Assembly: GCF_000682675.1 (NCBI RefSeq)
Contig: NZ_AWFA01000006.1
Location: 1 to 64,000, forward strand
Origin: Hyphomonas pacifica
Lineage (GTDB): Bacteria; Pseudomonadota; Alphaproteobacteria; Caulobacterales; Hyphomonadaceae
Length of the DNA stretch: 64,000 nt
Reading direction: 5' to 3'
Shown: piece after piece, positions 7,066 through 25,990 of the stretch
How positions within the stretch are numbered: position 1 is the stretch's first letter
Layout: the number at the start of each line of letters is the position of its first letter
Translations under genes and position numbers: made by a program
The notes under the pieces: generated by a model
Databases searched by the model: none
What the model was told of the DNA's origin: nothing
Seen by the model: the letters and a program-made list of their open reading frames with translations, nothing else

Positions 7066-7287
7066 GGTGCGCTCCGAACAGACAAGGGGAGCGCTCAAGC
7101 ATCAGCCAAAGCGAAGCCATCGCCCAGACGGGAAAGGCGCAAGAATTCGCAAGGCAAGGACTAGGCGGCTTTCAACTGTGAAGCGTCATTTTCCCGATTG
7201 CGAGAATCGTTAATCCCGCCTAACGTGCGTGTGCAACCAGTTTCTGTGTGAGCAAAGTTACTGGATCAATCATGTCGGCAGGAGGAC
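7066..7287. promoter_or_regulatory. Divergent promoter region between traG and the WYL gene
   Basis: The 222-bp gap must contain promoters for the leftward traG operon and the rightward defence cluster. A short inverted repeat CGATT-GCGAG-AATCG lies at 7195-7209, and GGAGGA at 7281-7286 is the ribosome site of the WYL gene. WYL regulators of defence loci usually bind inverted repeats at their own promoter, so this is where an operator would be expected. No confident -35/-10 pair was read. Confidence 0.4.
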
Positions 7288-8163
7288 ATGGTCGGAATGA
7301 ACAAGTCGGAGCTTCGCTGGGGCGTCGAGCGGCGTCTCGAATTCATCGAGTTCCGGCTATATTGGGAGGGGCATGTGAACCGCGGCGATGTGATGGAAGT
7401 TTTCGGCGTTTCGGTGAACCAGGCTTCGACCGATCTCAACCGCTATCTCGAGCTCGCGCCGGGCAACATGCTCTACGACAAGAGCGAACGCACTTATGTG
7501 CGCGGCGATCACTTTGCGCCGAAGTTTCTGCAGCCCGATGCGGGGCGATATCTATCACAGCTTCATTTGCTGGATCAGGGGATTGTGGAGCGGTCCGACG
7601 CCTGGCTCGGCAGTCTCCCGGAATTCGAAGCCTCGCCTACCCCAGCGCGCGGCGTCGAGGCCCCGATCCTCCGTTCGGTCCTGAGGGCTATCGAGAACCG
7701 AGAGGCCATTGAGGTTCGCTACCAGTCTATGTCGCAGCCTGAACCGGCATGGCGCTGGATCGCACCCCACGCGCTCGGATTTGACGGGTTCCGCTGGCAT
7801 GCCCGGGCGTGGTGTTTCAAGGACGCTGCCTTCAAGGACTTTGTGCTTTCGCGGATCCTGAAAGACCGCGCGCGCAAACCATCAGAGATTGATCCGCAAA
7901 CGGATCGCAACTGGCACAAGACGGTCGATCTGGTGATCGCCCCGCACCCGGACCTCTCGGATGCCCAAAAGGCCGCCGTGGCTCTCGACTATGGAATGAC
8001 CGACGGTCACGCGACACTAACCGTCAGAAACGCCATGCTCTACTACTCGCTGCGGCGTCTTGGCCTCGACACGGATCCTTCAGTGCGCGAACCGAAGGAC
8101 CAGCAAATCGTCTTAAAGAACCGGCTGGACACCGCTGGTTTCGCAACCACCAATCTGACGTGA
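7288..8163 (+). CDS. WYL-domain transcriptional regulator (BrxR/CapW-like)
   Basis: This 291-aa protein has a winged-helix N-terminus (about residues 8-60, with VFGVSVNQASTDLNRYLEL as recognition region), a WYL domain (about 133-190, IEVRYQSM... WRWIAPHALGFDG...WHARAW...FVLSRI) and a C-terminal WCX-like part. This is the architecture of BrxR/CapW repressors that control anti-phage loci by sensing a ligand. It is the first gene of the cluster, 10 bp before the large helicase gene. GGAGGA precedes the ATG very closely, so the ATG at 7297 is an alternative start. Function as the local repressor is inferred from family and position. Confidence 0.85.
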   Translation: MVGMNKSELRWGVERRLEFIEFRLYWEGHVNRGDVMEVFGVSVNQASTDLNRYLELAPGNMLYDKSERTYVRGDHFAPKFLQPDAGRYLSQLHLLDQGIVERSDAWLGSLPEFEASPTPARGVEAPILRSVLRAIENREAIEVRYQSMSQPEPAWRWIAPHALGFDGFRWHARAWCFKDAAFKDFVLSRILKDRARKPSEIDPQTDRNWHKTVDLVIAPHPDLSDAQKAAVALDYGMTDGHATLTVRNAMLYYSLRRLGLDTDPSVREPKDQQIVLKNRLDTAGFATTNLT

Positions 8164-8173
8164 GTGAAATGCC

Positions 8174-11100
8174 ATGAAAGCATTCGACTTCGACCAGCAT
8201 TTGATCACGGCATACGAACGGTTCTCGCGTTCCTTCACCTCAATCCGATCAGATGACCTGAGAGCTGAAATAGATCGGCAATATGACGAAGGGCGCTTCT
8301 GGCCTGAGGCGTTGCTGTCGCTCAATCCCCGATATCGGTCGGACAAAAACATCGATGAACTTGTAGCCACGGGTGATCTGGATGACGCCACTGGCAGGGT
8401 CTTTCGTTTTGGCGACGTTCCGATGACCTTCTATCGGCACCAGGCCGAAGCCATCGCCAAGGCGAAAGCAGGCAAGAGTTTCGTCGTCACGACCGGCACG
8501 GGATCAGGAAAATCCATGTGCTTCTTTGTGCCGGTGGTGGATGCAATTATTCGGGCTTTGCGGGCAGGAAAGCCAAGAAAGACGAGAGCCATCATCGTTT
8601 ATCCAATGAACGCGCTGGCGAATAGTCAATTGAAGGAGATCGACAAGTTCATCAGCCAGTCGGGCCTTCCGGAGAATATCCGTCCAGTGATCAAGCGATA
8701 TACTGGTCAGGAAAGCCAGGAGGAACGCCAGAAAATTGCAGCCAATCCTCCTGATATTCTGCTTACCAACTACATGATGGCAGAACTGCTTCTGACACGG
8801 CAGGACAAGCTAGATGCGCAAGTGGTCGAGAACGCGAGTGGCTTGGAATTCATCATCCTTGATGAGCTTCACACCTACAGGGGACGCCAAGGTGCAGACG
8901 TTGCTGTTCTTGTGCGACGCCTTCGCGACCGGTGCGCGCCAGACAAAGCCCCTGTCTGCATCGGTACTTCCGCGACTATGGCGTCCGAGGGCTCAGAAGA
9001 AAGTCGGGCCGTTGCGGTCGCAAAGGTCGCCTCTCGTTTGTTCGGCGCTGACATTGGCCCCGATGCCGTCATCGATGAGTCCCTGCAGCGCGCGACGGAT
9101 GACAAGATCACTCTATCAGATGCTGTCGCTTCACTGCCAGCCGTGCTGGGGGACGACCTTCCCGAAACACTAGATGACTCTACGCTCAGAACCCATGCGC
9201 TGGCGGTTTGGGCCGAGCTTGCGCTTGGTCTGGATGACGGCCTCGAGCTCAAACGACAGAAGCCAATGCCTTTTCAGGATGCCGTTGATCGACTCGTGGC
9301 GGACAGTGGTTTGGATTCTGAAAAGTGCAAGAGCGTTCTGCAGGAGTTTCTGACCAAAGTCAGCCTGCCAGAATTCGAAAGAGGCGGAAGCGGAGACCGC
9401 GCCTTTCTCGCCTTCAAGCTTCACCGCTTCATCTCGGGCGCAGGTGAAGTCTTTACCACCCTGACGAAACAGCCCCGAACGGTTCTGTTTGAAGGGCAGC
9501 TCGAAGATCCCACTTCACCAGGCAACCGCCTGTATCCAACGCGTTTCTGCAGAAATTGCGGTCAAGAATATCACGTCGTTACGAAGACTGACGATGATGG
9601 CCATACGAAATTTCTGCCGCGAGGGATCGACGATACGCCACTTGAGTCTGAAGACGGATCAGAAGTGGCTGGGTATCTCTGCCCCGTGCCAGACGGCGAC
9701 TCCGATTTCGTATTCAATGGCGATCTCACCACTTATCCGGAAAGCTGGCTGGAAGAACGCAATGGCGTGGAACGGTTGCGATCTTATCGAAGGCCGCGCG
9801 CTCCGGTGTCATTTCTTGTGGAGCCAGACGGGCGTCACGGTTCAGGTGGCCGGGAGTTCTTTTTTATACCCGGCAAATTCGCGTTCTGCCTGTGCTGTCA
9901 GGACGAACCCAATCAAGGCATGCGGGAGCGAAGCAAACTTGCGGGCTTGTCGGGTGAAGGCCGAAGCTCGGCGACGACGCTGTTGGTCTCGAGCGCCCTT
10001 GAATGGATGAATTCGACCGAGAGTGGTGTTCCGGAGACAAAACGAAAGCTTCTCGGCTTTACGGATAACCGTCAGGACGCGGCGCTGCAGTCTGGTCATT
10101 TCAATGACTTTCTTTTCGTCAGTCTCCTCCGCGGCGCGATTTTGCGGGCTATAGTTGACGATGGCGATGACGGCCTCAGCGAGGATGAGTTTGGTCTCAG
10201 GGTCGTTAAGGCGCTTGGCTTTGTCTCTTCCAATGCCGGCGCCCGGGTTCATTGGATGCTGGATCCGTCAGCAGGCGCGGTTATTCGCGAGGATGCACAG
10301 CGCGCGCTCGCAAAAGTGCTTGCCCATCGGGTCTGGACAGATCTTCGTCGCGGTTGGCGGTACACAAATCCCAGCCTCTCAGTTCTCAATCTGATTGATG
10401 TGCGATTTGTTGGCCTCGAGGAAATCGCCCACGACCGCGAGCGGATGATGGCTGTACTTCCGGAGTTGGGAGAGGTCTCGGCCGAGCAACGACAGAAGCT
10501 CCTGAAAGAACTGCTCAATGCAATGCTCGCCGGTCTCGCTGTGAACACAGAGTCTCTCGACCTGGCGGTGCTCGACGGCGTGGCGCAAAAATCTCGATCG
10601 CTGCTCCGTTCTCCATGGGCAATCGACAGCAAGGAGAAGCCGAGGGGGCGGGCGTCGCTGGTCCAGCGCGCTCCAGGCAAGGGCGTGGTCAGCCTGCGCG
10701 AAGAGCAAACGCTCCTCCGTGCAGGTCACAATTCCCGTATCGCCAGACTGATAAACAAGAAGAGCGTTATTGGAACAAAACTTGGCAAGAACGATTATCT
10801 GGATTTCCTAGGACGTCTTCTCGAACTTCTGTCTGATGAAGGTCTCGTTGTTCCCGTCGAGATCGACACCAATGTCATGGGCTGGCGGCTCACACCGTCG
10901 GCTGTCCGACTCGTGCCCGGTGCCGCACTCCAGGACGCGGCTGCGCGTGGCAATGAGTATTTCCATAACCTGTATCTCACCATTGCGAACGATCTCGCCC
11001 TGGGGAGCAGCGCCTATTGGGGGCTGGAAGGTCGGGAACACACCGCGCAAGTATCTCAAAAGCAACGCGAATGGCGCGAATGGCGGTTCCGGTTCGAGAA

Positions 11101-13360
11101 CGACGACCAGACCAATCTGCAGGGGTCTGAATACAGAACCGAGATAAAGGCCACAGGTGAGTCGGACCAGTTCCTACCGGCGCTCTTTTGTTCTCCGACA
11201 ATGGAGCTCGGTGTTGATATCTCAGCACTGAACGCGGTTTACCTCCGCAACGTGCCGCCAACCCCGGCAAACTATGCGCAGCGCGCGGGACGTGCCGGGC
11301 GCTCGGGTCAGGCTGCCGTAGTGGTCGCCTATTGCGCCTCAGGGTCACCACACGATCAATATTTCTTCGAGCGCCGCAACGATATGGTTGCCGGCGTTGT
11401 GAGGCCGCCTGCGCTCGACATCACAAATGAAGAGCTTGTTCGCTCCCATCTTCATGCGGTCTGGCTTGCCGAATCAAAGCTCGCCCTGTCCCCGGACATT
11501 CCAGAAATACTCGATCTTCAGACGGAGAATTTCCCGCTCAAAGACGACATATTGAGCGCGATAAACAAACCATCGCTCGTCTCATCAGCCGTGGGGCCCA
11601 TGAAACGCGTGCTGCATGCCATTCTGGCGGCGGACGGGGGGGCGCTTCCTACATGGATGGACGACGCCGATGACTTTGTTCTGAAGGTGGCCATGGAGGC
11701 GCCGAGATCGTTTGATCAAGCGTTTGGCCGATGGCGGGAGCTCTACAAGTCGGCACGCAGTCAACTTTCCGAGGCCAATGCGCGATCAGAGATCACAGGA
11801 CTCTCCGGAGCTGACCGGCGGAAGATAAAGTCTGCGCAAATTCAGGCCAGTGATCAGATTACCATCCTCGAGCAAGGCAAAGCATCGAATGGTTCGGACT
11901 TCTATTCGTATCGGTACTTGGCAACCGAGGGCTTTTTGCCGGGGTATAATTTTCCGCGTTTGCCACTTTACGCCTTTATTCCGGGTGAAGACAAAACCGG
12001 GTCGTTTTTATCGCGCGCCCGGTTTCTCGCTATTTCCGAGTTTGGCCCACGTAGTCTGATTTATCATGAGGGCCGCGCCTACCGCGTGATGAAAGCGAAG
12101 CTCCCTCCTGAGGCGCGGGGCGGGGACGGTTCAGAACTTGCGACAAAGGATATCTTCATCTGCCAGGAGTGCGGCGCTTGCCATGAAGGTGAGGTCGAGC
12201 GTTGCCATGGCTGCAATGCACATATGGCCAATGAAGTACCGATTAAGCGAACTCTTCGGATCGACAATGTAGAGGCGATGCCGACCGAGCGCATTTCGGC
12301 AAATGACGAAGAGCGTGTGCGGCAGGGCTTTGACATTCAAACGGTCTTCTCATGGCCGCGCAAGGAGGGACAAATTCAGGTCACCGAGGCCGACTATCGG
12401 TGTGGAGAAGCAAGTCTGCTGGCGCTCCAGTATGCGAACAGCGCCGAAATCAGTCGGTTGAACAAAGGCCTGAAACGTCGTCGCGACCAAACCGTCTTTG
12501 GCTTCTACATTGATCCCCGAACCGGGTACTGGGCCAAGTCCGAAGATGAAGACGCGGAAACAGACGCAGCACCAGACGTTGTAAAGCCAGTCCGCATTGT
12601 GCCGATAGTCCGTGATCACAAGAATGCACTTCTCGTCCGGATCAAAGAGCCACAAGCCTATGCACCTGCAACGATCACGACACTCCAGCATGCCCTGCTC
12701 AGGGGTATCGAAGTCGTCTACCAGCTGGAGGAAGGTGAAGTGCTGGGCGAGCCTCTACCGGCTCGCGATAATCGCCGGGCGATTTTGGCGTATGAGGCTA
12801 CAGAGGGTGGCGCGGGCGTCCTGACCCGTCTGATCGATGATCCCAAAGCGATAGCTGAGGTGGCGAGGACAGCATTGGAGCTGATGCACTTTGAGAACAT
12901 TGAGAAGGCGATTAGCGATGGCGATGCGACATTGCTCACGGACGCTGACGATGAAGCGTGCGTCAGAGGCTGTTATCGGTGCCTGCTCTCATACTTCAAC
13001 CAGCCCGATCATGAACAGATCGATCGGGCCAGCGATGAAGTGAAGCAGTTGCTTGTAGATCTTGCTCGAGGCGAGACCGTGCTCCAGCAACAAACTAAAC
13101 CAGATGCGGCGGCTCATCTCTGGCTGAGCGCTTTTGCGGCCGCCAACTTGCCGGAACCCGATGCTCTGCATTTTGAAATCGGAGAAGCGTCGATCGAATA
13201 TGGCTGGAAAACACATCGCGTCGCGGCGACTTTGAAGCCTCTCACGGATCCGCTGGCCGAACAGGCTCAAGCCCAGGGGTGGGAGCTGGTATTTCTGCCC
13301 TCAAGTCCGGGTGAGGGACTTCCGCCAGAGCTGGTTGAATTGCTGGGGGGCAACGCATGA
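8174..13360 (+). CDS. Giant DEAD/DEAH-type helicase with C-terminal DUF1998 (DruE/DrmAB-like)
   Basis: The 1,728-aa protein carries Walker A TGTGSGKSMC (about residues 105-114), a DELH box (about 229-232), a cysteine pair CRNCGQEY near residue 459, helicase motifs GVDIS and QRAGRAGRSGQ (about 1013-1045), a second cysteine cluster CQECGACHEGEVERCHGC (about 1330-1347) and a DUF1998 region with EGGAGVLTRL and CVRGCYRCLLSYFNQ (about 1542-1608). DUF1998 helicases of this size occur as DruE in Druantia, and DISARM splits similar functions over DrmA and DrmB. The stop overlaps the next start by 4 bp (ATGA). Likely role: ATP-driven loading or translocation on invading DNA; inferred. Confidence 0.9.
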   Translation: MKAFDFDQHLITAYERFSRSFTSIRSDDLRAEIDRQYDEGRFWPEALLSLNPRYRSDKNIDELVATGDLDDATGRVFRFGDVPMTFYRHQAEAIAKAKAGKSFVVTTGTGSGKSMCFFVPVVDAIIRALRAGKPRKTRAIIVYPMNALANSQLKEIDKFISQSGLPENIRPVIKRYTGQESQEERQKIAANPPDILLTNYMMAELLLTRQDKLDAQVVENASGLEFIILDELHTYRGRQGADVAVLVRRLRDRCAPDKAPVCIGTSATMASEGSEESRAVAVAKVASRLFGADIGPDAVIDESLQRATDDKITLSDAVASLPAVLGDDLPETLDDSTLRTHALAVWAELALGLDDGLELKRQKPMPFQDAVDRLVADSGLDSEKCKSVLQEFLTKVSLPEFERGGSGDRAFLAFKLHRFISGAGEVFTTLTKQPRTVLFEGQLEDPTSPGNRLYPTRFCRNCGQEYHVVTKTDDDGHTKFLPRGIDDTPLESEDGSEVAGYLCPVPDGDSDFVFNGDLTTYPESWLEERNGVERLRSYRRPRAPVSFLVEPDGRHGSGGREFFFIPGKFAFCLCCQDEPNQGMRERSKLAGLSGEGRSSATTLLVSSALEWMNSTESGVPETKRKLLGFTDNRQDAALQSGHFNDFLFVSLLRGAILRAIVDDGDDGLSEDEFGLRVVKALGFVSSNAGARVHWMLDPSAGAVIREDAQRALAKVLAHRVWTDLRRGWRYTNPSLSVLNLIDVRFVGLEEIAHDRERMMAVLPELGEVSAEQRQKLLKELLNAMLAGLAVNTESLDLAVLDGVAQKSRSLLRSPWAIDSKEKPRGRASLVQRAPGKGVVSLREEQTLLRAGHNSRIARLINKKSVIGTKLGKNDYLDFLGRLLELLSDEGLVVPVEIDTNVMGWRLTPSAVRLVPGAALQDAAARGNEYFHNLYLTIANDLALGSSAYWGLEGREHTAQVSQKQREWREWRFRFENDDQTNLQGSEYRTEIKATGESDQFLPALFCSPTMELGVDISALNAVYLRNVPPTPANYAQRAGRAGRSGQAAVVVAYCASGSPHDQYFFERRNDMVAGVVRPPALDITNEELVRSHLHAVWLAESKLALSPDIPEILDLQTENFPLKDDILSAINKPSLVSSAVGPMKRVLHAILAADGGALPTWMDDADDFVLKVAMEAPRSFDQAFGRWRELYKSARSQLSEANARSEITGLSGADRRKIKSAQIQASDQITILEQGKASNGSDFYSYRYLATEGFLPGYNFPRLPLYAFIPGEDKTGSFLSRARFLAISEFGPRSLIYHEGRAYRVMKAKLPPEARGGDGSELATKDIFICQECGACHEGEVERCHGCNAHMANEVPIKRTLRIDNVEAMPTERISANDEERVRQGFDIQTVFSWPRKEGQIQVTEADYRCGEASLLALQYANSAEISRLNKGLKRRRDQTVFGFYIDPRTGYWAKSEDEDAETDAAPDVVKPVRIVPIVRDHKNALLVRIKEPQAYAPATITTLQHALLRGIEVVYQLEEGEVLGEPLPARDNRRAILAYEATEGGAGVLTRLIDDPKAIAEVARTALELMHFENIEKAISDGDATLLTDADDEACVRGCYRCLLSYFNQPDHEQIDRASDEVKQLLVDLARGETVLQQQTKPDAAAHLWLSAFAAANLPEPDALHFEIGEASIEYGWKTHRVAATLKPLTDPLAEQAQAQGWELVFLPSSPGEGLPPELVELLGGNA

Positions 13361-16122
13361 GGGTCAACGTCTCGCCAGGCGATATCGTGCGTGCGCGAGG
13401 ACGGGAGTGGGTCGCACTGCCGCCACCAGATGGTGATGTGTTGGCGCTTCGGCCTTTGTCCGGCAACGAAAACGACGTGGTGTTGCTGAACCCCGACCTT
13501 GAGCTGACGGCGGTCGAACCGGCCCGCTTCGACTTGCCTGCAGACGCCGCGCGCACCGTTCAAGCCAAGGCCGCCCTTTTGAGCGATGCATTGAGGCTTA
13601 CACTGCGACGCGGTGCAGGTCCTTTCAGATCGGCGGCCCATCTATCTTTCGAGCCTCGCACCTACCAGTTGGTTCCGCTTCTTATGGCCTTGAGGCTCCA
13701 GGTGCCACGGCTGCTCATCGCTGATGATGTGGGGATCGGAAAAACCATCGAAGCAGGATTGATCCTCCGCGAGCTCATGGATCGGGGCGAGGTAGATTCG
13801 TTCTCAGTGCTTTGTCCGCCGCATCTGGTGGATCAATGGCTCATTGAACTCAAAGACCGGTTCGGGATTGATGCGGTCCCGGTAACCTCGGGGACAGCGA
13901 CCCGGCTCGAACGTAATCTGCCTCTCGCGCAAACACTCTTTGACGCGTTTCCGTTTACGGTTGTCAGTCTCGACTACATCAAAGCGGAGAAGCGGCGGGA
14001 CGGGTTTGCAAGGGCGTGTCCTGACTTTGTCATAGTTGATGAAGCTCACGCCTGCGTCGGGACCCACAAGGGCAAGCAGCAGCGTTTCGACCTTCTTCAG
14101 GGGCTGGCAAAAGACGCCAATCGCCGACTGATAATGCTGACCGCCACACCGCATTCAGGTGATGAAGAGGCATTTGCGCGGCTTCTGTCACTAATTGATG
14201 AGGAATTCGCGAGCGCAGACTTTGACAATACGCGCTATCGAGAGCGCCTTGCACGGCATTTTGTCCAGCGCAGACGTGTGGACCTGATTGAAGGAGACTG
14301 GGACGAGACGCGGTCCTTTCCAAAACATGAGACCACGGAATTCTCCTATCGGTTGACGGGACCGCATCTCGATTTCCAGGAGTCGGTTATCGACTATTGT
14401 CTGGGAGTCGTTTCGCGCGCCGGCAACCAAAGACGGGATCAAAGATTAGCGTTCTGGGGAACGCTTGCGCTGATGCGCTGCGTTGGGTCGTCACCGGCTG
14501 CGGCGCTCAGTGCCCTGAGGAACCGCGCCAGCAATGAGACTGAGCGCCTCGAACCCCGGATATACGACGAAGACGGCGATGACGAAGATGCCGTTGACCT
14601 CGAGCCGGGCACGGTCTTCACATCGGATCCTGAACTTCTTGCACTACTCGATCGAGCATCAGGGCTCACAACCGAGACAGACCCGAAAATTGACGCGCTC
14701 GTCAGTACTTTGAAACCTCTGATCAAAGACGGGGCAAACCCGGTCGTGTTTTGCCGTTATCTGGCAACTGCGGAATATGTGAAGGAACGGCTTCGCAAAG
14801 CTTTTGGCAAACTCACGGTGGAGGTTGTGACCGGCGAGCTGACGCCGGATGAGCGGCGCGACCGTGTCGCCGAAATGGCCTCTGAGGATTCGCAGAAGGA
14901 CACGCAGCGCATTCTTGTGGCCACCGACTGCCTGTCGGAAGGCATCAATCTTCAGCAACTCTTCGACACCGTGGTTCACTACGATCTTTCGTGGAATCCC
15001 ACGCGCCACCAGCAGCGGGAGGGCCGCGTTGACCGCTTTGGTCAGCCTGCTGAACTGGTTCGGTCCATCATGATGTTCTCCCCCGACAGCGCGATCGACG
15101 GCGCAGTTCTGGACGTCATCTTGCGAAAGGCAGAAGAGATCAGAAAAGCAACCGGCGTCACCGTTCCGCTGCCGGAAGAACGTGGAGCGGTCACAGACGC
15201 ATTGATGGCGTCGATGATGCTGCGTCGCGGCGGGCAGCAACAACTCGCGCTCGACCTACGTCTTGAAGACGGCACACGGGCCATTGAGACGCGTTGGCGC
15301 GATGCCAGCGAGAATGAAAAGAAATCACGCGCGCGATTTGCCCAGAATGCCATGAAGCCGGGTGAAGTCGCACCGGAATGGAACAAGGTGAAAGACCTGC
15401 TCGGCTCGCCTGATGACGCTCGGCAGTTCGTTGACCGGGCCATGTCGAAATTTGGCGTACCGCTCGAGAAGAAGGGCCCGGTCCATCTCGCGCATGTGCA
15501 CGCCCTGGAGCCAAGCCTGAAAGAAAAACTGGATCAGCGCGGGCTCACGGGGTCAGTGAGGCTTGCCACCGCCGAACCTGCGCCTTCGGGAACCAGTCTT
15601 CTGACGCGGACCCATCCCTTGACATCCGCTTTGGCGGAAAGCCTGCTCGAAGCCTCTCTCGAACCTGAATCATTGCCAGATCTAGGTATTGGCCGTGTTG
15701 GTGCCTGGCCAACTCCAGCGGTCACCGTCGTGACGCGGATTGCCCTACTGCGTCTGCGATACAAGCTGACCATTCACGCCAGAAAAGAAAGACTGCTCCT
15801 CGCTGAGGAAGCCGCGCTTGTTGCCCTGCAGGGCGATAAGATCGTTGCGTCTGGAAACGCCGTCCGGGACTGGCTCAGCACACCGGCGACAGCGGACCTC
15901 GCCGACATTGCACGCAAGAGACTGACCGATGCAGCCAAAGCCGATCTGCCGATGATGCTTGCGGGTCCGCTGGCAGACTTCATCCGGCAGCGTGCGGAGG
16001 AACTCGTCGAAGATCATGCCCGCTTGCGCGCCGCCGCTGGGGCCGCCTCCAGGGTTAGCGTCGAACCAGTGCTGCCGCCGGATGTTATCGGGCTCTTCGT
16101 TCTCATACCGGACGGAGCCTAA
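13357..16122 (+). CDS. SNF2-family helicase, DrmD-like
   Basis: This 921-aa SF2 ATPase has Walker A ADDVGIGKTIEAG (about residues 121-133), the DEAH box in FVIVDEAHAC (about 224-233), TATPHSGDEEAF, and helicase motif VI in HQQREGRVDRFGQ (about 550-562). The order and wording match SNF2-type helicases of class 1 DISARM (DrmD) and related defence loci. It overlaps the DUF1998 helicase gene by 4 bp, and its stop is 2 bp before the methyltransferase start, so one transcript is likely. Function in DNA translocation or remodelling on foreign DNA is from family knowledge, not from the sequence alone. Confidence 0.9.
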   Translation: MRVNVSPGDIVRARGREWVALPPPDGDVLALRPLSGNENDVVLLNPDLELTAVEPARFDLPADAARTVQAKAALLSDALRLTLRRGAGPFRSAAHLSFEPRTYQLVPLLMALRLQVPRLLIADDVGIGKTIEAGLILRELMDRGEVDSFSVLCPPHLVDQWLIELKDRFGIDAVPVTSGTATRLERNLPLAQTLFDAFPFTVVSLDYIKAEKRRDGFARACPDFVIVDEAHACVGTHKGKQQRFDLLQGLAKDANRRLIMLTATPHSGDEEAFARLLSLIDEEFASADFDNTRYRERLARHFVQRRRVDLIEGDWDETRSFPKHETTEFSYRLTGPHLDFQESVIDYCLGVVSRAGNQRRDQRLAFWGTLALMRCVGSSPAAALSALRNRASNETERLEPRIYDEDGDDEDAVDLEPGTVFTSDPELLALLDRASGLTTETDPKIDALVSTLKPLIKDGANPVVFCRYLATAEYVKERLRKAFGKLTVEVVTGELTPDERRDRVAEMASEDSQKDTQRILVATDCLSEGINLQQLFDTVVHYDLSWNPTRHQQREGRVDRFGQPAELVRSIMMFSPDSAIDGAVLDVILRKAEEIRKATGVTVPLPEERGAVTDALMASMMLRRGGQQQLALDLRLEDGTRAIETRWRDASENEKKSRARFAQNAMKPGEVAPEWNKVKDLLGSPDDARQFVDRAMSKFGVPLEKKGPVHLAHVHALEPSLKEKLDQRGLTGSVRLATAEPAPSGTSLLTRTHPLTSALAESLLEASLEPESLPDLGIGRVGAWPTPAVTVVTRIALLRLRYKLTIHARKERLLLAEEAALVALQGDKIVASGNAVRDWLSTPATADLADIARKRLTDAAKADLPMMLAGPLADFIRQRAEELVEDHARLRAAAGAASRVSVEPVLPPDVIGLFVLIPDGA

Positions 16123-16124
16123 GC

Positions 16125-19100
16125 ATGGCGCGTCGCCCCGTCACCGACCTTTCCGCCTGGCCTTCGATTAGTCTCGAAGGCAATCTGATTGCGCCCGCCA
16201 TGCTGGCGCGGATTGATGAACGTGCTGCGCCCGAACAAAGCCCAGAAGAGTATGGCGTGCGCAAAGGCCTTACACTTCGCGAAGACATCTCCACGGCGTT
16301 CCGGGTTGGCCAGTCGCATTTTGATGCGTTCAGCAAACAGAGTAATCCTTCGGCCGACGCCACGCGGCGCTTCATTAAGGCCTTCCTGAAGGAGACGTTT
16401 GGGTTCGATGATGTCGAAGATGGTGAAGGGCTGATAGCACTCTTTGCGGGCGACAAGCGTATTCCCGTCATTGTCGTACCGCCTGATGAGGAACGGCTCG
16501 ACCGACGCAGCGCCACGTTGTCGGTCGAGCGCTCGCGCTCGCCCGCCTTTGCGCTTCAGGACTACCTCAACGAAGAAGATGACGCCCTGTGGGGCCTTGC
16601 CACAAATGGCACCGTTATTCGCCTGATGCGGGACAACGCCTCCCTGACGCGCCCCGCGTTCATCGAGGCTGACCTTGCACAAATCTTCTCCAATGAGGAC
16701 GCCGCATCTTTCGGTCTGCTCTGGCTCCTCATTCACCGAAGCCGTTTCGGCAATGCTGGCGCGTCGGCCACCGACTGTGCGCTGGAACGCTGGCGGGAAA
16801 CGGGAACGAAGGAAGGCGAAGTTGCACGCGACCGGCTCGCAGCACAGGTCAAACTTGCCCTCAATATTCTCGGATCGGGCTTCCTTGAAGCCAATCCGGC
16901 GCTCGCGGCCAAGCTTCAGTCTGGCGAGCAAAACCTGACCGAGTGGTTCAACGAACTGCTGCGTCTAGTCTACCGGCTGATCTTCCTGATGGTTGCCGAG
17001 GACCGAAACCTTCTGCACCCGAAGGTTTCCAGGGCGGAGGCGCGCAAGCTTTATGCGGATGGTTACAGCCTCGCCCATCTTCGCGCCCAGTGTTTTCGCG
17101 GGGCGACCTGGGACCGCCACCATGACCGATTTGAGGGGATCAAGATCGTCTTCCGCGCACTGGCTGGTGGTCAGGAGGCCCTGGCGCTGCCCGCGCTTGG
17201 CGGGCTCTTTGCGCCGAACATGCTGCCGAGCCTGGAGACCGCGAAGTTGCGCAACCGCGCCTTCATGGAGGCGCTCTACCGCCTTTCATGGCTGCAGGGC
17301 AAAACAGGCATGGCGCCGGTCAACTGGCGCGCCATGGAGACCGAGGAACTAGGCTCCGTCTATGAATCCCTCCTCGAACTCCAGCCCCAGCTTGGCGATG
17401 ACGGCAAGTCGCTGGTCTTTGCGTCCGAAGCGGCGGAACAGAAGGGCAATCAGCGCAAAACCACCGGTTCCTACTACACGCCCGACAGCCTCGTGCAGGC
17501 CCTGCTCGATACCGCGCTCGATCCGGTCCTCGAAAAGACCGAGACCGAAGCGGATGATCCGGAAGCCGCGCTACTAAACCTGTCTGTCATCGATCCCGCC
17601 TGCGGGTCGGGTCACTTTCTGCTCGCTGCGGCAAGACGGATTGCCACGCGCGTCGCCCGTATTCGTGCCGACGGCACACCGGCGCAGGAGGATTTCCGCC
17701 ACGCGCTGCGCGATGTCGCGCGCTCCTGCATTCACGGCGTGGACCGCAATCCGATGGCGGTGGAGCTGACCAAGGTGGCGCTCTGGATCGAGACGGTCGA
17801 TCCCGGCCTGCCGCTCGGGTTTTTCGATGCGCAAATCCGCTGCGGCGATGCGCTGCTCGGTGTGTTCGATCTGGCTGTTCTGGAAGAAGGTATTCCGGAT
17901 GCGGCCTACAAGCCGCTAACGGGCGACGACAAGGATGTCGCCAAATACTATCGCGACAAGAACAAGCGCGAGGTCAAAGAGCGGGAGACCATCGCCAGCG
18001 GCTTCGGGTTTGCCCGCCAGCAGGATTTCATGCGCGAATTTGCGCGCCTGCGCGCCATGCCGGAAAACACGGTGCGGCAGATCGAGGCCAAGGCTGAGAA
18101 GCTTCGTGCCCTGACGGCGGAGGGCGCAATCGCCTGGACGCTGGAGACCGCCTGCGATCTCTATGTCTCAGCCTTCCTCCTGCCCAAGACGAAAGACGAT
18201 CCGCATGCCGGTCCGGACGGCCTGCCGCGCCGGGGCGCTGAGACCGTACCGACCTCTGGCGCGCTCTGGGAATGGCTGCGCGGCGTGCAACTCTTCGGCC
18301 CACTCTTCGCAAACAGCATCGACGCTGCCCGCAAAGCACGCGCTTTCCACTGGCCGCTGGAATTCCCAGACGTCATGCAACACGGTGGGTTCGATGTGGT
18401 GCTGGGCAATCCGCCTTGGGAGCGTGTCGAAGTTCAAGAACAGGAAATTTTCGCAACGTCACATCCCGAGATCGCGACTGCAAAGAATGCTTCCCATCGC
18501 AAAAGGATGATCGACGCGCTGAGGACTAGCGATCCAAAGAACTTCGCGCGATGGCAGGATGCGCTCCGGACAGCGGCTTTCGAGGTGAATTTTTATAAGG
18601 AAAGCGGAAGGTTTCCGCTCGGTAGCCCGGGAAAGGTAAATACCTACGCCGTATTCTCGGACCTGTTTTGGCAGCTAGCACATCCACAAGGCTATTCTGG
18701 GTTGATTATTCCGACTGGTCTGGTCGGCGGCTATACGTATCGTGAGTTTCTCGGCGAGCTATTGCGCGCGAGGTCGCTAGTAGCATTCTACGGTTTCGAG
18801 AATGAAGACCTTATCTTTCCTCACATCACCAATAAGGTAAAGTTTGGCCTACTGACGGTTGCCGGGCGCAGTGTTGAAATCGAACGACCTTGGTTCACGG
18901 CGCACATTCGCCAGCCTGCCGAAATCGCTGATCCCGAGAAGCGTTATTCGCTTACCGTCGATGAAATCCGGGCGATCAATCCGAACACGCTCAATCTGCC
19001 AGCGTTTCGCTGGGCCAGAGACGCCAAAGTTACTGCTGTCATCCACACCGTGGCACCGATCTTGATCGAGAAGGACGGAAACACGGTTGTTCGGAATGAC

Positions 19101-20621
19101 TGGCGTGTCACGTTCAAAACGCTTTTTAATATGGCGACTGACTCAGGGCAATTCATGGACCATGAGGACATTGCGCCGCTGATTCTCGAACGCCGAGGCG
19201 CGCTCGCTGTCCTCACAGATGGTCGACAAGTCTATCCCCTTTATGAGGGGAAGATGTTCTGGCATTTCGACCACCGGTACGGGACCTACGAGAACCAAAC
19301 CGAGAAGCAGGCCAACAAAGGCGTTCTCCCTAGGGTGACGGATGCGCAGCATTCCCGGCCAGACTATAGAATTCAGCCCCGTTACTGGGTTGATAGACGG
19401 GCAACGCACGACGCGTTGGCCGACGATGCGGACACAGAATGGTTTTTCGCCTGGAGGGATGTTGGACCGTCGGAGCGTAGCTTCGTTGGGACCATCGTGC
19501 CGAGAGCCGCAATGGGTCACGCGTCGCCTTATATTTCAGCCGAGTTGCCACCGCCTGAAGTGCTTTCATTGAGCGCGATCCTATCATCTCTGGTGGTCGA
19601 CTACGCGGTTCGGCAGAAAACAAGCCGAATGACTTTCTTCGTGGTAGAACAGCTTCCTATGCTCGACCGTGAGAAACTGGAGCATGCTCCGATTTGGCTC
19701 GGAGAAAGTGCCGGTGCTTGGATTAACCAGCGGGCGATTGAGCTCTTCTACACGAACAGGGAACTCAGCGGACTAGCGGAGAGCATTGGTTCAGCAACAT
19801 CGCCTTATCGGTGGGATGCCTCCCGTCGTTCGGTATTGCAGGCTGAAATAGATGCCGCTGTTCTGCACCTCTATTCCTTGAACCGCGAACAAGCAGAGTG
19901 GCTTCTCGATTCTTTCACCGTTCTCCGCAAATACGAGGAGCGAGACCACGACGAATTTCGCACAAGACGGCTCGTGCTCGAAGCCTATGACGCGATGGCA
20001 AAAGCTAAAGCGGATGGGGTCAGCTACCAGACGCCGCTATCACCGCCGCCCGCTGACATCAGCCTTTGTCACGGTGCCGAAGAAGCACGACAGCCTTCAA
20101 CCACACAACCCATTCAACTCCCACCGCTCGAAGAACTGCCCGATGCAATTTGGGCCTGGCAGCAGGGCGTTCCGGAGCGCGACCGTGTCCGCGCTCAACT
20201 TCGCGCCGTCGCTGGTATCGTACCGGAGCCATCGGACGCTCGCCGGATACGTCTCGCAGCGTTGTCCTGCCTTCAGCCGAGCCTGCTTGATGGCTTCCTT
20301 TCAGATCAGGATCGTCGCGAATGGCAGCGTCTCATGGCGCATCCTACCGGCGTCACCCAGCTTGTCCCGCCGACCAACGCCGCCTGGGGCGCGGCTTTCA
20401 ACGAGTTGGTGTCATCGGCCGTTCTCGACGTATCGACAGACGGCAGCAGGTGGAGCGCCGGTGAGCGACTCGATCACTCCACTTTGAGCGCTGACGACCC
20501 ATCGGTGGCCCGCGCCTTGTTTGCGTGGTCAAGGCTACAATCCGTCGATCTGGAGCAGGGCCTGACTGCGGTCTCGGCAGAGATCATTCCATTCATCAGG
20601 GAGGGACGGCTTGCAGCCTGA
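16125..20621 (+). CDS. N6-adenine DNA methyltransferase, DrmMI/PglX-like
   Basis: The 1,498-aa enzyme has methyltransferase motif I in VIDPACGSGHFLLAA (about residues 487-501), the entry pattern GSYYTPDSLV (about 446-455) and the catalytic NPPW of motif IV (about 761-764), typical of Eco57I/PglX/DrmMI-type adenine methylases that mark host DNA. I could not identify a PD-(D/E)XK nuclease motif, so restriction is probably done by partners. Sampled GC drops from 42/60 (17701-17760) to 23/60 (18781-18840) just after the NPPW motif, which suggests the specificity region was exchanged. It overlaps the ATPase gene by 11 bp. Confidence 0.88.
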   Translation: MARRPVTDLSAWPSISLEGNLIAPAMLARIDERAAPEQSPEEYGVRKGLTLREDISTAFRVGQSHFDAFSKQSNPSADATRRFIKAFLKETFGFDDVEDGEGLIALFAGDKRIPVIVVPPDEERLDRRSATLSVERSRSPAFALQDYLNEEDDALWGLATNGTVIRLMRDNASLTRPAFIEADLAQIFSNEDAASFGLLWLLIHRSRFGNAGASATDCALERWRETGTKEGEVARDRLAAQVKLALNILGSGFLEANPALAAKLQSGEQNLTEWFNELLRLVYRLIFLMVAEDRNLLHPKVSRAEARKLYADGYSLAHLRAQCFRGATWDRHHDRFEGIKIVFRALAGGQEALALPALGGLFAPNMLPSLETAKLRNRAFMEALYRLSWLQGKTGMAPVNWRAMETEELGSVYESLLELQPQLGDDGKSLVFASEAAEQKGNQRKTTGSYYTPDSLVQALLDTALDPVLEKTETEADDPEAALLNLSVIDPACGSGHFLLAAARRIATRVARIRADGTPAQEDFRHALRDVARSCIHGVDRNPMAVELTKVALWIETVDPGLPLGFFDAQIRCGDALLGVFDLAVLEEGIPDAAYKPLTGDDKDVAKYYRDKNKREVKERETIASGFGFARQQDFMREFARLRAMPENTVRQIEAKAEKLRALTAEGAIAWTLETACDLYVSAFLLPKTKDDPHAGPDGLPRRGAETVPTSGALWEWLRGVQLFGPLFANSIDAARKARAFHWPLEFPDVMQHGGFDVVLGNPPWERVEVQEQEIFATSHPEIATAKNASHRKRMIDALRTSDPKNFARWQDALRTAAFEVNFYKESGRFPLGSPGKVNTYAVFSDLFWQLAHPQGYSGLIIPTGLVGGYTYREFLGELLRARSLVAFYGFENEDLIFPHITNKVKFGLLTVAGRSVEIERPWFTAHIRQPAEIADPEKRYSLTVDEIRAINPNTLNLPAFRWARDAKVTAVIHTVAPILIEKDGNTVVRNDWRVTFKTLFNMATDSGQFMDHEDIAPLILERRGALAVLTDGRQVYPLYEGKMFWHFDHRYGTYENQTEKQANKGVLPRVTDAQHSRPDYRIQPRYWVDRRATHDALADDADTEWFFAWRDVGPSERSFVGTIVPRAAMGHASPYISAELPPPEVLSLSAILSSLVVDYAVRQKTSRMTFFVVEQLPMLDREKLEHAPIWLGESAGAWINQRAIELFYTNRELSGLAESIGSATSPYRWDASRRSVLQAEIDAAVLHLYSLNREQAEWLLDSFTVLRKYEERDHDEFRTRRLVLEAYDAMAKAKADGVSYQTPLSPPPADISLCHGAEEARQPSTTQPIQLPPLEELPDAIWAWQQGVPERDRVRAQLRAVAGIVPEPSDARRIRLAALSCLQPSLLDGFLSDQDRREWQRLMAHPTGVTQLVPPTNAAWGAAFNELVSSAVLDVSTDGSRWSAGERLDHSTLSADDPSVARALFAWSRLQSVDLEQGLTAVSAEIIPFIREGRLAA

Positions 20622-22572
20622 TTTCTTCCAGCCTGAAGAGATCAAGTTCTCCCTGCCGGACGGCCAGGAGGGGCCAAGGTTGTGGGTTCGCCGCGTGGCG
20701 CTTTGGCAGGACGCGGGCACGCTTCTGCGGGACATACCACTTCGCCCCGGCGTGAACATTATCTGGTCTCCCGACCTCACCACAAATGGCAAGGGCGCGA
20801 CACCCCATGGCAGCGGTAAGTCCACCTTCTGTCGGCTGATCCGCTATTGCCTCGGCGAGCGGCACTTCTCGAATGACGAACAGCGCCCGCTGATGCAGCA
20901 CAAGCTGCCTGACGGTTTCGTTGGGGCAGAGATAATCATTGACGGTGAATGCTGGGTCGTGACGAGACCGATTGGCATGAACCTGCCGTCTCGTGCCGTT
21001 CGGGCAGACCGGATAGAAGAGACGTTTGATCAGCTATTGGTCGGGACGGACCCGCCGACGCTCGCGCCCGTTATTTCGGATCGCTTTTGCAAGGCCTATC
21101 GTGATCAAGTGCCGGACAATTTGAGGGCAGATCAGGTCTGGGATGTGCTTCTCGCCTGGCTCACCCGCGATCAGGAGTGCCGCCTCGATGATGTGTTCGA
21201 CTGGCGCTCGAAGCGGTCTGGTTCCGGGTCGCCTGCTCAGGAGCTATCGCTTGAAACCAAGCTGACCGTTGTTCGCCTCGCAATCGGTGCCCTTTCCGCG
21301 GAAGAGACTTCGGCAGCCGCGGAAGCACGAACGCTCACACGCGAGCGCGATGGCCTGCGTCAGCAACTTGGCCATCTCGACTGGTTCCAAAACCAGCGCT
21401 TTGGTGAGCTGTGCGAAGGCCTTTCCTATCCGACGGACCGCGACCCTGCCGAGGAAACGGTTCGCAGGGAACTGATTGATCGGGCCAATGAGGAATTGGC
21501 GAAGGCCACGGGCAATAAGCACACGAAGGGTAGCGCGCCCAGCGCGGAGCTTCAGGGCAAGCGTCGCACCCTGCAGACTGAGCGTACAAAGGTCAGCGAC
21601 GAACGTGCGGAAGCACAAGCGCTGCTCAACAGCCTTCCCGCTCAGATCGCTGCGAAGCGCTCAGAACAGGGCTTTGAGCGAGCAAGATTGGAAACCGGAG
21701 AGATCGTTCGCTGCACGATCTGCCATGTCAGCATTGATGAGGTGAAGGCGAAGGGGTGTGGTGTCTCGCTTGAGCGGTGCGACTTGGATGAAGTTCGAAC
21801 ACGGCTAGACCGCGCTGAAGAGCAAGTGGCGGAATTTGAAAGACAACGCGCTTCACTTCCCATCGAAATTGGGAAGCTGGATGGGGAAATCCTACGCCTG
21901 GATCGTGAGATCCGTCAGATCGACGATCAGTTCGTCAAGCTTGAGGGTCAGTTGACCGAAACCAACTCTCGCGTCACGAATGCGCGCGAGCTTGTCCGAG
22001 AGGCAACCTGGTTCGACCGTCAGCTGAACGGCAGGCAGGCCATTGTTCGCCGACTTGAAGCGATCGACACAAGGCTTGAAGTTCTTCGCGATTCCATGCG
22101 GCGCGAACGTGAACGTGCGTCCACCGCCATTGGTGATCTTGAGACCGTCTTCAAGCAACTGATCTCGAGCCTGATGCCGCGTGGCTGTTCCGGAAGAATC
22201 CAGCTTGACGGAAATGGTCTGCATCCGGAGATTCTGTTGGAGCGTGGCGTCGGTCTATCAACCGCAGCCGTGGAGTCCTTCAAGATCGTCGCCTTTGATC
22301 TGGCGGCCCTGATCCTCTCGGTGAATGGCAAGGCCAGGATGCCAGCACTTCTAATCCATGACAGCCCACGCGAGGCGGATCTTGACGCCGGAATTTATGC
22401 CAACCTCTTCGATTTCGTGCTGGGTTTGGAGGGGCAGGCAGTCCCGACACCATTCCAGTACATCGTCACGACGACGACCGCCCCGTCAGATTCAGCACGC
22501 GGTCATGAGGCCATGCGTCTGGAGCTCTCGTCCACCCCGCCGGAGGCGAGGCTCTTCGCAATGGACTTCTGA
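20611..22572 (+). CDS. SMC/Rad50-like ATPase with zinc-hook motif
   Basis: The 653-aa protein starts at a TTG at 20611 preceded by GGGAGG, inside the end of the methyltransferase gene. It has a P-loop PHGSGKST (about residues 66-73), long charged coiled-coil regions (about 225-360 and 390-500), a CTIC pair near residue 368 placed between them like a Rad50 zinc hook, and a C-terminal LLIHDSPREADLD (about 579-591) in the place of Walker B and D-loop. This is the layout of SMC-type DNA-end or DNA-structure sensors. It is coupled to the HNH gene (stop and start share one base), so the pair probably forms a sensing and cutting module; this is inferred. Confidence 0.8.
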   Translation: MQPDFFQPEEIKFSLPDGQEGPRLWVRRVALWQDAGTLLRDIPLRPGVNIIWSPDLTTNGKGATPHGSGKSTFCRLIRYCLGERHFSNDEQRPLMQHKLPDGFVGAEIIIDGECWVVTRPIGMNLPSRAVRADRIEETFDQLLVGTDPPTLAPVISDRFCKAYRDQVPDNLRADQVWDVLLAWLTRDQECRLDDVFDWRSKRSGSGSPAQELSLETKLTVVRLAIGALSAEETSAAAEARTLTRERDGLRQQLGHLDWFQNQRFGELCEGLSYPTDRDPAEETVRRELIDRANEELAKATGNKHTKGSAPSAELQGKRRTLQTERTKVSDERAEAQALLNSLPAQIAAKRSEQGFERARLETGEIVRCTICHVSIDEVKAKGCGVSLERCDLDEVRTRLDRAEEQVAEFERQRASLPIEIGKLDGEILRLDREIRQIDDQFVKLEGQLTETNSRVTNARELVREATWFDRQLNGRQAIVRRLEAIDTRLEVLRDSMRRERERASTAIGDLETVFKQLISSLMPRGCSGRIQLDGNGLHPEILLERGVGLSTAAVESFKIVAFDLAALILSVNGKARMPALLIHDSPREADLDAGIYANLFDFVLGLEGQAVPTPFQYIVTTTTAPSDSARGHEAMRLELSSTPPEARLFAMDF

Positions 22573-23327
22573 TGATCGAAAATCCTCAATCCTTCGTCGT
22601 TTCTACCGAGTGCAGCAAGGCTGCCGAACAGAACGGTTTTCGTCGTCGACTTGGCGAAACAGACGGATGGGCGGCGTTCCAGTCAACAACGGTGCAAGGG
22701 ACGATCTGGTTCGCGGCTGCCGGGGCATCGGGTCCATGGTATCTGGCGCTGGATCATTCCGGTGTGATCGCTGAATCAGGTCTTGCCACGACGGCCACGA
22801 ATGGCCCCGGCAAAGCGCGTTTCAGGTTCGAGTCGCTCCGGGAACTCTATGCCGCGCTACCTCGTATCTATGCGCTCGCGTCAAGTCTTCCTGATGCGCC
22901 GCTTCGTGTCTTCGAAAAGAAAATCGAAGGCCTTCCCAGATCGACCGAAGCCGAGCGAACAGTTGTACAACGCATTGGGCAGGACGTGTTCCGCGAGAGC
23001 TTGCTGGAATACTGGGATGGGAAATGTCCTCTCACTGGGATCGGTGATGCTGCCTTGCTGCGCGCCTCTCACATCATCCCATGGAAAGACTGTGAGTCCG
23101 ACGCTGAGCGCCTCGATGTGCACAACGGTCTTCTGCTTTCGGCGCTTTGGGACGCAGCCTTCGACAAAGGTCTCGTGACATTCGATGATGGTGGAGAACC
23201 TGTCTACTCTTCTGTCCTGGGATCGTCTGCCCGGCAGCATCTCAAGTGGACAAGGCCGATAGTGTTGACTCAAAGCCACATTGTCCGACTGGCTTGGCAC
23301 AGGAGCAACGTCTTCGTTATCGGCTGA
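22572..23327 (+). CDS. HNH endonuclease (HNH_2 type)
   Basis: The C-terminal half of this 251-aa protein holds an HNH nuclease core: CPLTG near residue 152, SHIIPW near 168-173, DVHNGLLLSALWD near 181-193, then a strand with FDDGG. The N-terminal 110 residues are an unassigned domain rich in aromatic residues. It is the last gene of the cluster and starts at the stop of the SMC-like gene. Its 3' end faces the relaxase gene with a 25-bp gap. It is the clearest candidate for the DNA-cutting effector of the cluster, replacing the DrmC phospholipase-D nuclease of DISARM. Confidence 0.85.
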   Translation: MIENPQSFVVSTECSKAAEQNGFRRRLGETDGWAAFQSTTVQGTIWFAAAGASGPWYLALDHSGVIAESGLATTATNGPGKARFRFESLRELYAALPRIYALASSLPDAPLRVFEKKIEGLPRSTEAERTVVQRIGQDVFRESLLEYWDGKCPLTGIGDAALLRASHIIPWKDCESDAERLDVHNGLLLSALWDAAFDKGLVTFDDGGEPVYSSVLGSSARQHLKWTRPIVLTQSHIVRLAWHRSNVFVIG

Positions 23328-25281: not shown

Positions 25282-25489
25282 GGTGCAAACGCCGTTGGCG
25301 CCCTCATAAACCACTGAATCAATTGGGGATACCAAAAAACAGGGTGCCACAAGGTTTCGCAAGAGGCGCCAAAAAAGGGATGTGCAGACAAGGGGTTAAG
25401 GGGCCGAGGGCGCCAACCCTTTAATCTTGCCCTCCGGGTCCGCACACCTATTCCTTGCCAATCCTTGCAAGCGCTTGCGAGATCGCCGG

Positions 25490-25990
25490 TCATCGCTGTT
25501 CCCACAGCAGGGTCGCCACACCCTCGAGATCGCTGTCCTGCATGATCCCGAAATAGCGCCCGTCGAGGGATCGCGGATGATCATTGAGGAGGAAAACCTC
25601 GCCGTTCCGGAGCACATGACAGCCCTGCCAGCGTGGCAGTTTGAGACCGGCGGGCGCCTCGACGAGCGCCTCGGCGACCACGGTTTGATTGATCAGGATG
25701 GTCTGGTTCTCGCGGCAGATTTCATCGCCAGGAAGCCCTGCAATCCGCTTCACCAATGGCCAGTCTGCGCCGGTAAAGCCGTGTGAGGAAGTCCATCTCG
25801 CGGCCTCCGATTTGGCAGAGACGACAGCCCACCCGTTCAGGGTGAGCGGGCCGTCGCTCCGCCAGTAGAGGCCGATGGGCGCGCTTTGCGTCCTGTTCCA
25901 AATCAGCCGTTTCTGATCGGCGATCACGCTCGCTGAGCCGATCAGACCTATGGCAATACCTAACAGAATGAGGGCGGTTCTGCGCTTCAC
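25490..25990 (-). CDS. traF: TraF, S26-family peptidase for pilin maturation
   Basis: This 166-aa membrane peptidase has an N-terminal anchor (LILLGIAIGLIGSASV), the catalytic serine in QSAPIGLYW and the catalytic lysine in LVKRIAGLPGDEI, as in TraF peptidases that process the TrbC pilin. The preferred start is a GTG at 25990, overlapping the stop of the HTH gene by 4 bp (GTGA). It is followed by rlxS after a gap of about 210 bp in which I see no gene. Confidence 0.88.
   Translation of the reverse strand: MKRRTALILLGIAIGLIGSASVIADQKRLIWNRTQSAPIGLYWRSDGPLTLNGWAVVSAKSEAARWTSSHGFTGADWPLVKRIAGLPGDEICRENQTILINQTVVAEALVEAPAGLKLPRWQGCHVLRNGEVFLLNDHPRSLDGRYFGIMQDSDLEGVATLLWEQR

Follow-up and report, generated by a model that had tools for sequence, protein, structure and literature searches.

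A six-gene cluster of helicases, methylase, ATPase and nuclease

The first 64,000 nucleotides of contig NZ_AWFA01000006.1 of Hyphomonas pacifica (RefSeq assembly GCF_000682675.1), a stretch that we call the window, carry at positions 7288-23327 a cluster of six complete open reading frames (ORFs), all rightward (+). In order, these encode a WYL-domain regulator, a YprA-family helicase, an SNF2-type helicase, an N6-adenine methyltransferase, an SMC-like ATPase (hereafter SMC) and an HNH nuclease, and their positions are collected in Table 1 together with those of neighbouring genes. The spacings from 5' to 3' are a gap of 10 bp, an overlap of 4 bp, a gap of 2 bp and overlaps of 11 and 1 bp. Coordinates and direction thereby confirm the layout given by the original prediction, a note made by a model from the letters alone, which read the genes as an undescribed defence system in which the methylase marks self DNA, two helicases scan unmodified DNA and an SMC-HNH pair cuts. 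Pfam matches exceed their own cut-off for five of the six proteins, that is, for all except the SMC.

Table 1 Features of the cluster and of its surroundings in the window
Feature	Position	Strand	Basis
WYL-domain regulator, optional member	7288-8163	+	291 aa; Pfam WYL 45.7 bits
YprA-family helicase, DEAD and MZB/DUF1998 zinc domain	8174-13360	+	1728 aa; Pfam; tree branch 100*
YprA C-terminal domain, degenerate-looking Vsr-type nuclease	12986-13357	+	sequence, alignments, profile match (hhalign)
SNF2/BrxHII/DrmD/DpdE-like helicase	13357-16122	+	921 aa; PADLOC DpdE 621.6, DrmD 264.5, BrxHII 181.6 bits
PglX/DrmMI-like N6-adenine methyltransferase	16125-20621	+	1498 aa; PADLOC DrmMI 249.5 bits; Pfam Eco57I/N6_Mtase
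Methyltransferase residues 750-1300, specificity region (like a target recognition domain)	18372-20024	+	sliding correlation ~0 with SMC, SNF2, HNH
Methyltransferase C-terminal tail, residues 1345-1498, putative SMC-docking domain	20157-20618	+	co-variation with SMC, profile, AlphaFold2 (AF2)
SMC-like ATPase, YydD/DUF2326/Lamassu LmuB kind	20611-22572	+	653 aa, TTG start, CxxC hook; PADLOC LmuB, predicted fold
HNH_2 nuclease, presumed cutting effector	22572-23327	+	251 aa; Pfam HNH_2 46.1 bits
TraG/VirD4-like coupling protein	5104-7098	-	flanks cluster
DUF3363 protein, sub-threshold relaxase match	23353-25362	-	flanks cluster
T2SSE/VirB11-like ATPase	784-1815	-	
S26 signal peptidase	25490-26038	-	

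Conservation of the last five genes

The last five genes form a conserved unit. We fetched 78 genome loci through the SMC, from the best 80 of its 213 matches, and in 56 of them the YprA, SNF2, methylase, SMC and HNH genes follow one another in this order. The original prediction, which had treated the genes as one unit and had named a lack of such conservation as what would speak against it, was thus right on this point. Seven of the 78 loci have the same genes without the HNH (in L109 the sequence stops shortly downstream), and the remaining 15 are partial, several lying on short contigs and two being Type I systems. As these loci were picked through the SMC, the frequency of the SMC cannot be read from them. 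Among plasmids, a tblastn search with the SMC gave eight full-length relatives, five with all five genes and two with the first four but no HNH. The eighth, L009 (Paracoccus versutus pBEN), has SMC and HNH with the rest not nearby; it appears to be a remnant, and lies near a TraG gene.

Two genome samples allow the association to be judged more broadly. A sample of 398 Pseudomonadota genomes, not chosen by the SMC, holds YprA in 14 (E<=1e-60) and the SMC in eight (E<=1e-20), all eight being among the 14 (hypergeometric 2e-13, a value that ignores kinship and counts in the window's genome). Among 385 genomes of the same class as H. pacifica, YprA occurs in seven (E<=1e-50) and an SMC match in five (E<=0.001). 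The match is full-length in the window's genome and in G311, both of which have YprA; those in G247 and G014 are weak, partial and without YprA, and that in G066 is an apparent remnant. This last locus (L031) comprises an HNH gene with short fragments of SMC and SNF2, the SNF2 fragment being 97% identical.

The WYL gene behaves differently from the other five. A WYL protein of the window's family lies upstream in only 10 of 75 full-length YprA loci with at least 1.1 kb of upstream sequence; it is therefore optional, and we ruled it out as a constant member.

Placement within ARMADA type I

ARMADA was named in a 2025 bioRxiv preprint by Bell et al. (PMC12458937), and what follows draws on the portions of it available to us. 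There, type I has the order YprA helicase, BrxHII-like helicase, PglX-like methylase; the types are defined as clades; Vsr is given as an architecture of types I and II, the YprA of type I normally ending in a predicted active Vsr nuclease; and anti-phage activity is shown for type II only (PMC12458937). The window has the same three proteins in the same order: a YprA with DUF1998, a BrxHII/RapA-like helicase and a PglX-like methylase. A 28-row YprA tree places it with type I-like rows, set apart by a branch marked 100* from two type II-like rows and one Druantia DruE; the tree was built by a quick method with long branches flagged and without the preprint's own type I representative, and its type II labels follow gene order for L203 and the neighbouring helicase for L201. 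Type II systems share the YprA, the methylase and the BrxHII-like helicase with the window, yet differ in gene order, in their larger YprA (2113 and 2133 aa) and in their separate 100* branch. By annotation, the type II-like plasmid L203 reads helicase, methylase, hypothetical protein, YprA, UvrD, and in L201 only YprA and the helicase were seen.

The window cluster therefore very probably belongs to ARMADA type I. A Vsr nuclease predicted to be active, as expected at the C-terminus of a type I YprA, is missing, and we file the cluster as a variant of the type despite this loss because the types, as far as the available text goes, are clades (PMC12458937). What sets it apart from type I is a fused Vsr domain that looks degenerate, together with an added HNH, SMC-like ATPase, methylase tail and WYL. 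Hence 'undescribed' does not hold for the YprA-SNF2-methylase core, and a match of the cluster to a system already named, which the original prediction had held would undo it, extends to three of the six genes only. The main text of the preprint, as available, does not mention SMC, and HNH and WYL are confined to its list of references (PMC12458937). Our literature search, which took in the main text of the preprint, found no description of an HNH/SMC variant of ARMADA I, nor did it find a published experiment on ARMADA type I. SMC-linked restriction-like systems may have been mentioned earlier in Krishnan 2020, which the available part of PMC12839542 cites for ABC-ATPase-anchored restriction-like systems.

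DISARM and Druantia had been the points of comparison in the original prediction, which saw a restriction-like gene set with a DruE-like helicase standing in for DrmA and DrmB and with no DrmC, and gene content bears this out. Class 1 DISARM shares a DrmD-like SNF2 helicase and a DrmMI-like methylase with the window, but it has separate DrmA and DrmB and the phospholipase D-type nuclease DrmC, none of which is found here. With Druantia there is a distant DruE-like helicase in common; no DruH or DruA-D partner lies in the cluster, the one DruC match (15 bits) falling within the coiled coil of the SMC, and the window's best score with the DruE model is 273.5 bits, about one tenth of the 2583.9 bits of our positive control, a DruE beside STY4851. 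So, although the DrmD, DrmMI and DruE models do match, the scores, the gene content and the tree rule out membership of either system, and a variant of one of them is next to inconceivable. A search of PADLOC-DB 2023, which the prediction had proposed as a check, found relatives of DruE, DpdE/DrmD, DrmMI and LmuB, but no ARMADA-named model among the best 25 matches per protein. That library alone would therefore leave the cluster unplaced, and a census based on its scores would probably misfile the genes.

Loss of the fused Vsr motif and presence of a separate HNH

Alignments show that the Vsr domain of the window's YprA has lost the segment with the D-G-x-x-H motif, which is invariant in 12 intact tails and whose residues we take to be catalytic. 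With the zinc region disregarded, window-type tails still match the tails of sister systems in which Vsr is intact (hhalign 97.2%, E 2.8e-11), and by its sequence the domain looks like a degenerate, dead but still homologous nuclease.

Across ARMADA I systems, the intact fused domain and the separate HNH exclude each other. Of 104 systems, 10 without HNH and with <3 kb of downstream sequence were set aside; among the 94 loci left, 73 have only HNH, 16 only intact Vsr, five neither and none both; L115 is a false positive of a loose Vsr motif, and the corrected counts are 73, 15, 6 and 0. Near-copies remain among these 94: L029 and L147 represent the same locus, L035 and L136 come from the same genome, and L047 and L049 are identical. 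Short duplicates were excluded from the 104, as were loci in which no YprA was scored, such as L064, which lacks HNH and in which the truncated YprA still has an intact DG..H motif at its end. An 89-row tree, likewise built by a quick method and scored with a stricter version of the motif, gives 70 rows with only HNH, 16 with only Vsr (five of them with <3 kb downstream), three with neither and again none with both. The three are L115, with an insertion sequence element after the methylase, L182, with its methylase in pieces, and L132, a Chloroflexota system. Omitted from this tree are 10 systems that are broken, cut or duplicate, and five (L010, L011, L068, L073 and L074) in which no CxxC anchor could be located; of these, four have intact Vsr and no HNH, in line with the pattern. 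The switched state is kept across YprAs down to ~41% identity to the window's (L111).

Inheritance points the same way. Our co-inheritance set comprised 62 systems with a single methylase ORF and an SMC, 58 of them with HNH, and 52 after removal of near-copies; in these 52 the HNH distances follow those of SNF2 (r 0.92) and YprA (r 0.90). Residues H167, N185 and D194 of the HNH are among those identical in 58 of 58 homologues. From these sequence comparisons we infer that the HNH may be the cutting effector working with the helicases, and we are fairly confident that it replaces Vsr as the nuclease.

Some relatives differ in their surroundings. L112 (Nocardioides pNOCA01) and L113 (Deinococcus MP1) are ARMADA I systems with intact Vsr; the former has drmA/drmB upstream and McrBC genes directly after, and the latter has McrBC further downstream. 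L110 and L135, on Sphingomonadales plasmids, are ARMADA I systems with HNH and without SMC; genes for WYL, a RecB-like nuclease and an ATPase lie upstream, and in L135 a gene for a large ATP-binding protein stands before the HNH.

An LmuB-like SMC co-inherited with the methylase tail

The SMC carries a P-loop (HGSGKS, residue 66), a CTIC hook (368) and an HDSPREAD motif (583). Pfam gave it only a sub-threshold DUF2326 match (21.1 of 28.7 bits), DUF2326 being found in 28 of 30 of its relatives, and the PADLOC LmuB model scores 69.9 bits. Its AF2 model matches best 9a6c_A, a YydD-YydB entry that is an integrative model (E 3.6e-15), followed by Lamassu entries from 9uxh_F (E 2.4e-14) to E 5.7e-9, with large root-mean-square deviations due to the coiled coil. 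A search of PDB sequences with the SMC profile returned 71 weak matches up to E 1 (best 0.0021), mostly coiled coils, including Rad50 and SMC fragments. As modelled, the SMC resembles the YydD/LmuB kind. For Lamassu, the part of PMC10586767 available to us describes LmuB as its likely sensor, a protein of ~650 aa in which a zinc hook is often present. Size and hook are thus shared with Lamassu, ABC-3C and YydD, and the LmuB-like ATPase that Lamassu calls for is present; in contrast to Lamassu, the window has no separate LmuA or LmuC, neither model being among the best 25 PADLOC matches per protein, and a putative equivalent of the middle component is fused to the methylase.

The methylase itself (motifs DPACGSGHF at residue 490 and NPPW at 762) falls into parts with separate histories. 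Sliding correlation along the operon in the 52 non-redundant systems resolves three inheritance blocks: YprA, SNF2, methylase residues 1-600 and HNH are co-inherited; methylase residues ~750-1300 follow no other part, as a swappable specificity domain would; and residues 1350-1498 co-inherit with the whole SMC and hardly with other parts. SMC and tail distances correlate at r 0.84, a value unchanged when SNF2 is partialled out (0.84; 0 of 999 permutations), compared with 0.23 for methylase 1-680, 0.22 for SNF2 and 0.0 for the specificity region. First identity profiles had hinted at a tie between SMC and specificity region, which the last figure rules out. Among 29 close systems the SMC-tail correlation is 0.60 (0 of 999) and that with the specificity region -0.03; three SMC classes correspond almost one-to-one to four tail classes (adjusted Rand index, ARI, 0.96), and seven specificity classes do not follow the SMC classes (ARI -0.04). 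Indeed, L106 and L053 share 99% identity over the C-terminal half of YprA, yet only 30% in the SMC and 24% in the tail.

Presence follows the same line. Summed methylase ORF lengths, which count split or early-started ORFs, are 1422-1729 aa in 69 rows with SMC and 1204-1402 aa in 18 rows without; length tracks the SMC in nine of nine independent tree pairs (p 0.004), with a cut at 1410 aa that was chosen after the lengths were seen. A tail profile derived from the window plus 39 of the same loci finds the tail in 64 of 69 systems with SMC, partly by construction, and in 0 of 18 without, which is not so by construction. Modelled alone, the last 167 residues of the methylase give a well-folded AF2 prediction (predicted local distance difference test, pLDDT, 88.8; predicted template modelling score, pTM, 0.86). 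A PADLOC search with the tail found nothing, one of PDB sequences gave a single unusable match (E 0.031), and the Pfam matches were weak and scattered, found in just 1-2 of 40 members. Fold matches below significance include chains from Lamassu entries that have the size of LmuC (E 0.54 and 0.89) and chains of MukE-MukF entries (from 0.99), which on our own reading of the entries are presumably LmuC and MukE. There is no match between the main tails and a divergent set (hhalign 0.8%, against 0.1% for A2 and A5, two presumably unrelated alignments). That the methylase tail docks the SMC is, on the strength of this co-variation, a probable reading.

The tail and SMC on other restriction systems

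The tail-then-SMC arrangement recurs outside ARMADA. In L085 and L091 a Type I HsdS carries a fused tail alignable with that of the window, and the SMC follows; an HsdR gene is present in both, and the HsdM gene was checked in L085. L199 (G526:C43) contains a Type III Mod/Res pair in which Res has a C-terminal extension, after which comes an SMC of the window's family. With hhalign this extension matches ARMADA tails of the divergent kind (98.2%, E 5.2e-14), one of the five compared being from the same genome as L199, and does not match the main tail (0.4%). The Type I systems thus share the window's tail family and the Type III system that of a divergent ARMADA group, whereas the rest of their machinery is wholly different. 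Since the arrangement also occurs on HsdS and Res carriers, we infer that the tail may serve as a docking domain and the SMC as a portable sensor. Two further observations concern such loci: L078 probably also has an HsdS-tail fusion followed by SMC in a Type I system, and a PDC-S18 gene follows the SMC of L085.

Conjugative setting

Flanked as it is by TraG/VirD4-like and DUF3363 genes, the cluster was correctly placed inside a conjugative element by the original prediction. An 821-aa protein encoded among the transfer genes at 2018-4483 (-) has a SEC-C motif as its sole Pfam match. The cluster is also present in G311, of the same class, where YprA is 92% identical to the window's; by eye, it has on one side an ORF whose beginning resembles that of the window's TraG, and on the other a DUF3363-like ORF.

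A model for sensing and cutting

Taken together, these findings make it fairly likely that the cluster represents an ARMADA I branch with an exchanged nuclease, in which an HNH serves as replacement effector and an SMC module has been added. As the model is drawn from sequence comparison, we give its steps conditionally. The methylase, through its specificity region, would mark host DNA at an adenine-containing site, and the SNF2 and YprA helicases would load on unmarked DNA and translocate. An SMC dimer, docked by the tail on the methylase, could sense the state of the DNA or serve as a clamp, and in this way license the helicases; LmuB presumably does so in Lamassu. The HNH, recruited by YprA/SNF2, would then make the cut that the fused Vsr makes in sister systems, and the WYL protein, where present, would control expression. 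We regard this mechanism, taken whole, as likely also. On the broader proposal our judgement is evenly balanced: a portable module, comprising an LmuB/YydD-like ATPase and a docking domain on the DNA-recognising, marking or cutting subunit, may plug into at least three unrelated methylation-based restriction systems, be swapped as allelic classes between near-identical ARMADA cores, and add a check of DNA structure to the base mark before a replaceable nuclease cuts.

The original prediction's pairing of SMC and HNH deserves weighing. The two could form a Rad50/Mre11-like nuclease that cuts beside a separate methylase-helicase unit; their genes are adjacent with an overlap of 1 bp, the SMC has a CxxC hook, and, as the available part of PMC10586767 has it, the effectors joined with LmuB in Lamassu can be nucleases, among others. 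Against this, SMC and HNH distances hardly correlate (r 0.14 in the 52 systems and 0.02 in the 29 close ones), and each occurs without the other, HNH alone in eight and SMC alone in seven of the 89 tree rows (four of the seven with <3 kb downstream), as does SMC alone in L010, L011, L073 and L074, which lie off the tree and have at least 10 kb downstream. Other genes may also intervene: in L025, the closest relative's cluster, a GmrSD-type Type IV restriction gene (16838-18736) stands between the two, and gaps of 1.4-2.8 kb separate them in L058, L087, L094 and L095. As the HNH goes with the helicases and the SMC with the tail, the cutting pair is unsupported, and we hold this reading to be very doubtful. 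Somewhat less so, though still improbable, is an SMC that is a Lamassu-like abortive-infection unit merely housed in the operon and acting apart from ARMADA. The LmuB/YydD fold, the 11 changes of SMC presence on the 89-row tree and the SMC's occurrence beside Type I and Type III systems would fit such a guest, but neither LmuA nor LmuC is among the best 25 PADLOC matches per protein of the cluster, and its only strong co-inheritance partner among the parts compared is a domain fused to the methylase, which an independent unit would not need.

Tail and SMC might, alternatively, simply be exchanged as one segment without being linked in function, the decay of Vsr and the gain of HNH being unrelated accidents in one ancestor. 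The two are contiguous, so that linkage may add to their correlation as a recombination-tract effect, homologous flanking cores can drive exchange, and the tree has a single Vsr/HNH switch. Yet the HNH, which is equally adjacent, does not track the SMC, and we take this to argue against a tract effect. Moreover, the tail was found in none of the 18 systems without SMC, tails precede the SMC on unrelated HsdS and a second tail type does so on Res, and L115, L132 and L182 are the only tree rows without either nuclease. We therefore consider this explanation unlikely, to about the same degree as the independent unit.

The reading that we prefer, an HNH effector and a tail-docked SMC on ARMADA I, also has points that tell against it. 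On the tree HNH changes three times and Vsr twice, giving only three independent pairs and no significance; because the switch is essentially one ancestral event, the mutual exclusion reflects retention rather than repeated evolution. Among the 29 close systems the link of HNH to the core is weaker (SNF2 0.66, YprA 0.54), and the SMC has a slight link to methylase residues 1-600 (0.12; 48 of 999 permutations). Five systems with SMC (L138, L139 and L143-L145) have a tail that is different or very diverged, with no detectable homology, and Foldseek found no match to the tail at E<=0.001, the top one being an O-methyltransferase (E 0.25). Finally, canonical Walker B motifs have DE; the SMC has HDSP at that position, so its ATPase may be weak.

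SMC-type sensing is known from Lamassu and Wadjet, and it is suggested here as an add-on to modification-based restriction. The ARMADA I branch of H. pacifica pairs a dead-looking fused nuclease with an intact separate one, and the question of which of them cuts thereby becomes testable. If true, the model bears on how such systems spare their host and on which state of foreign DNA they detect.

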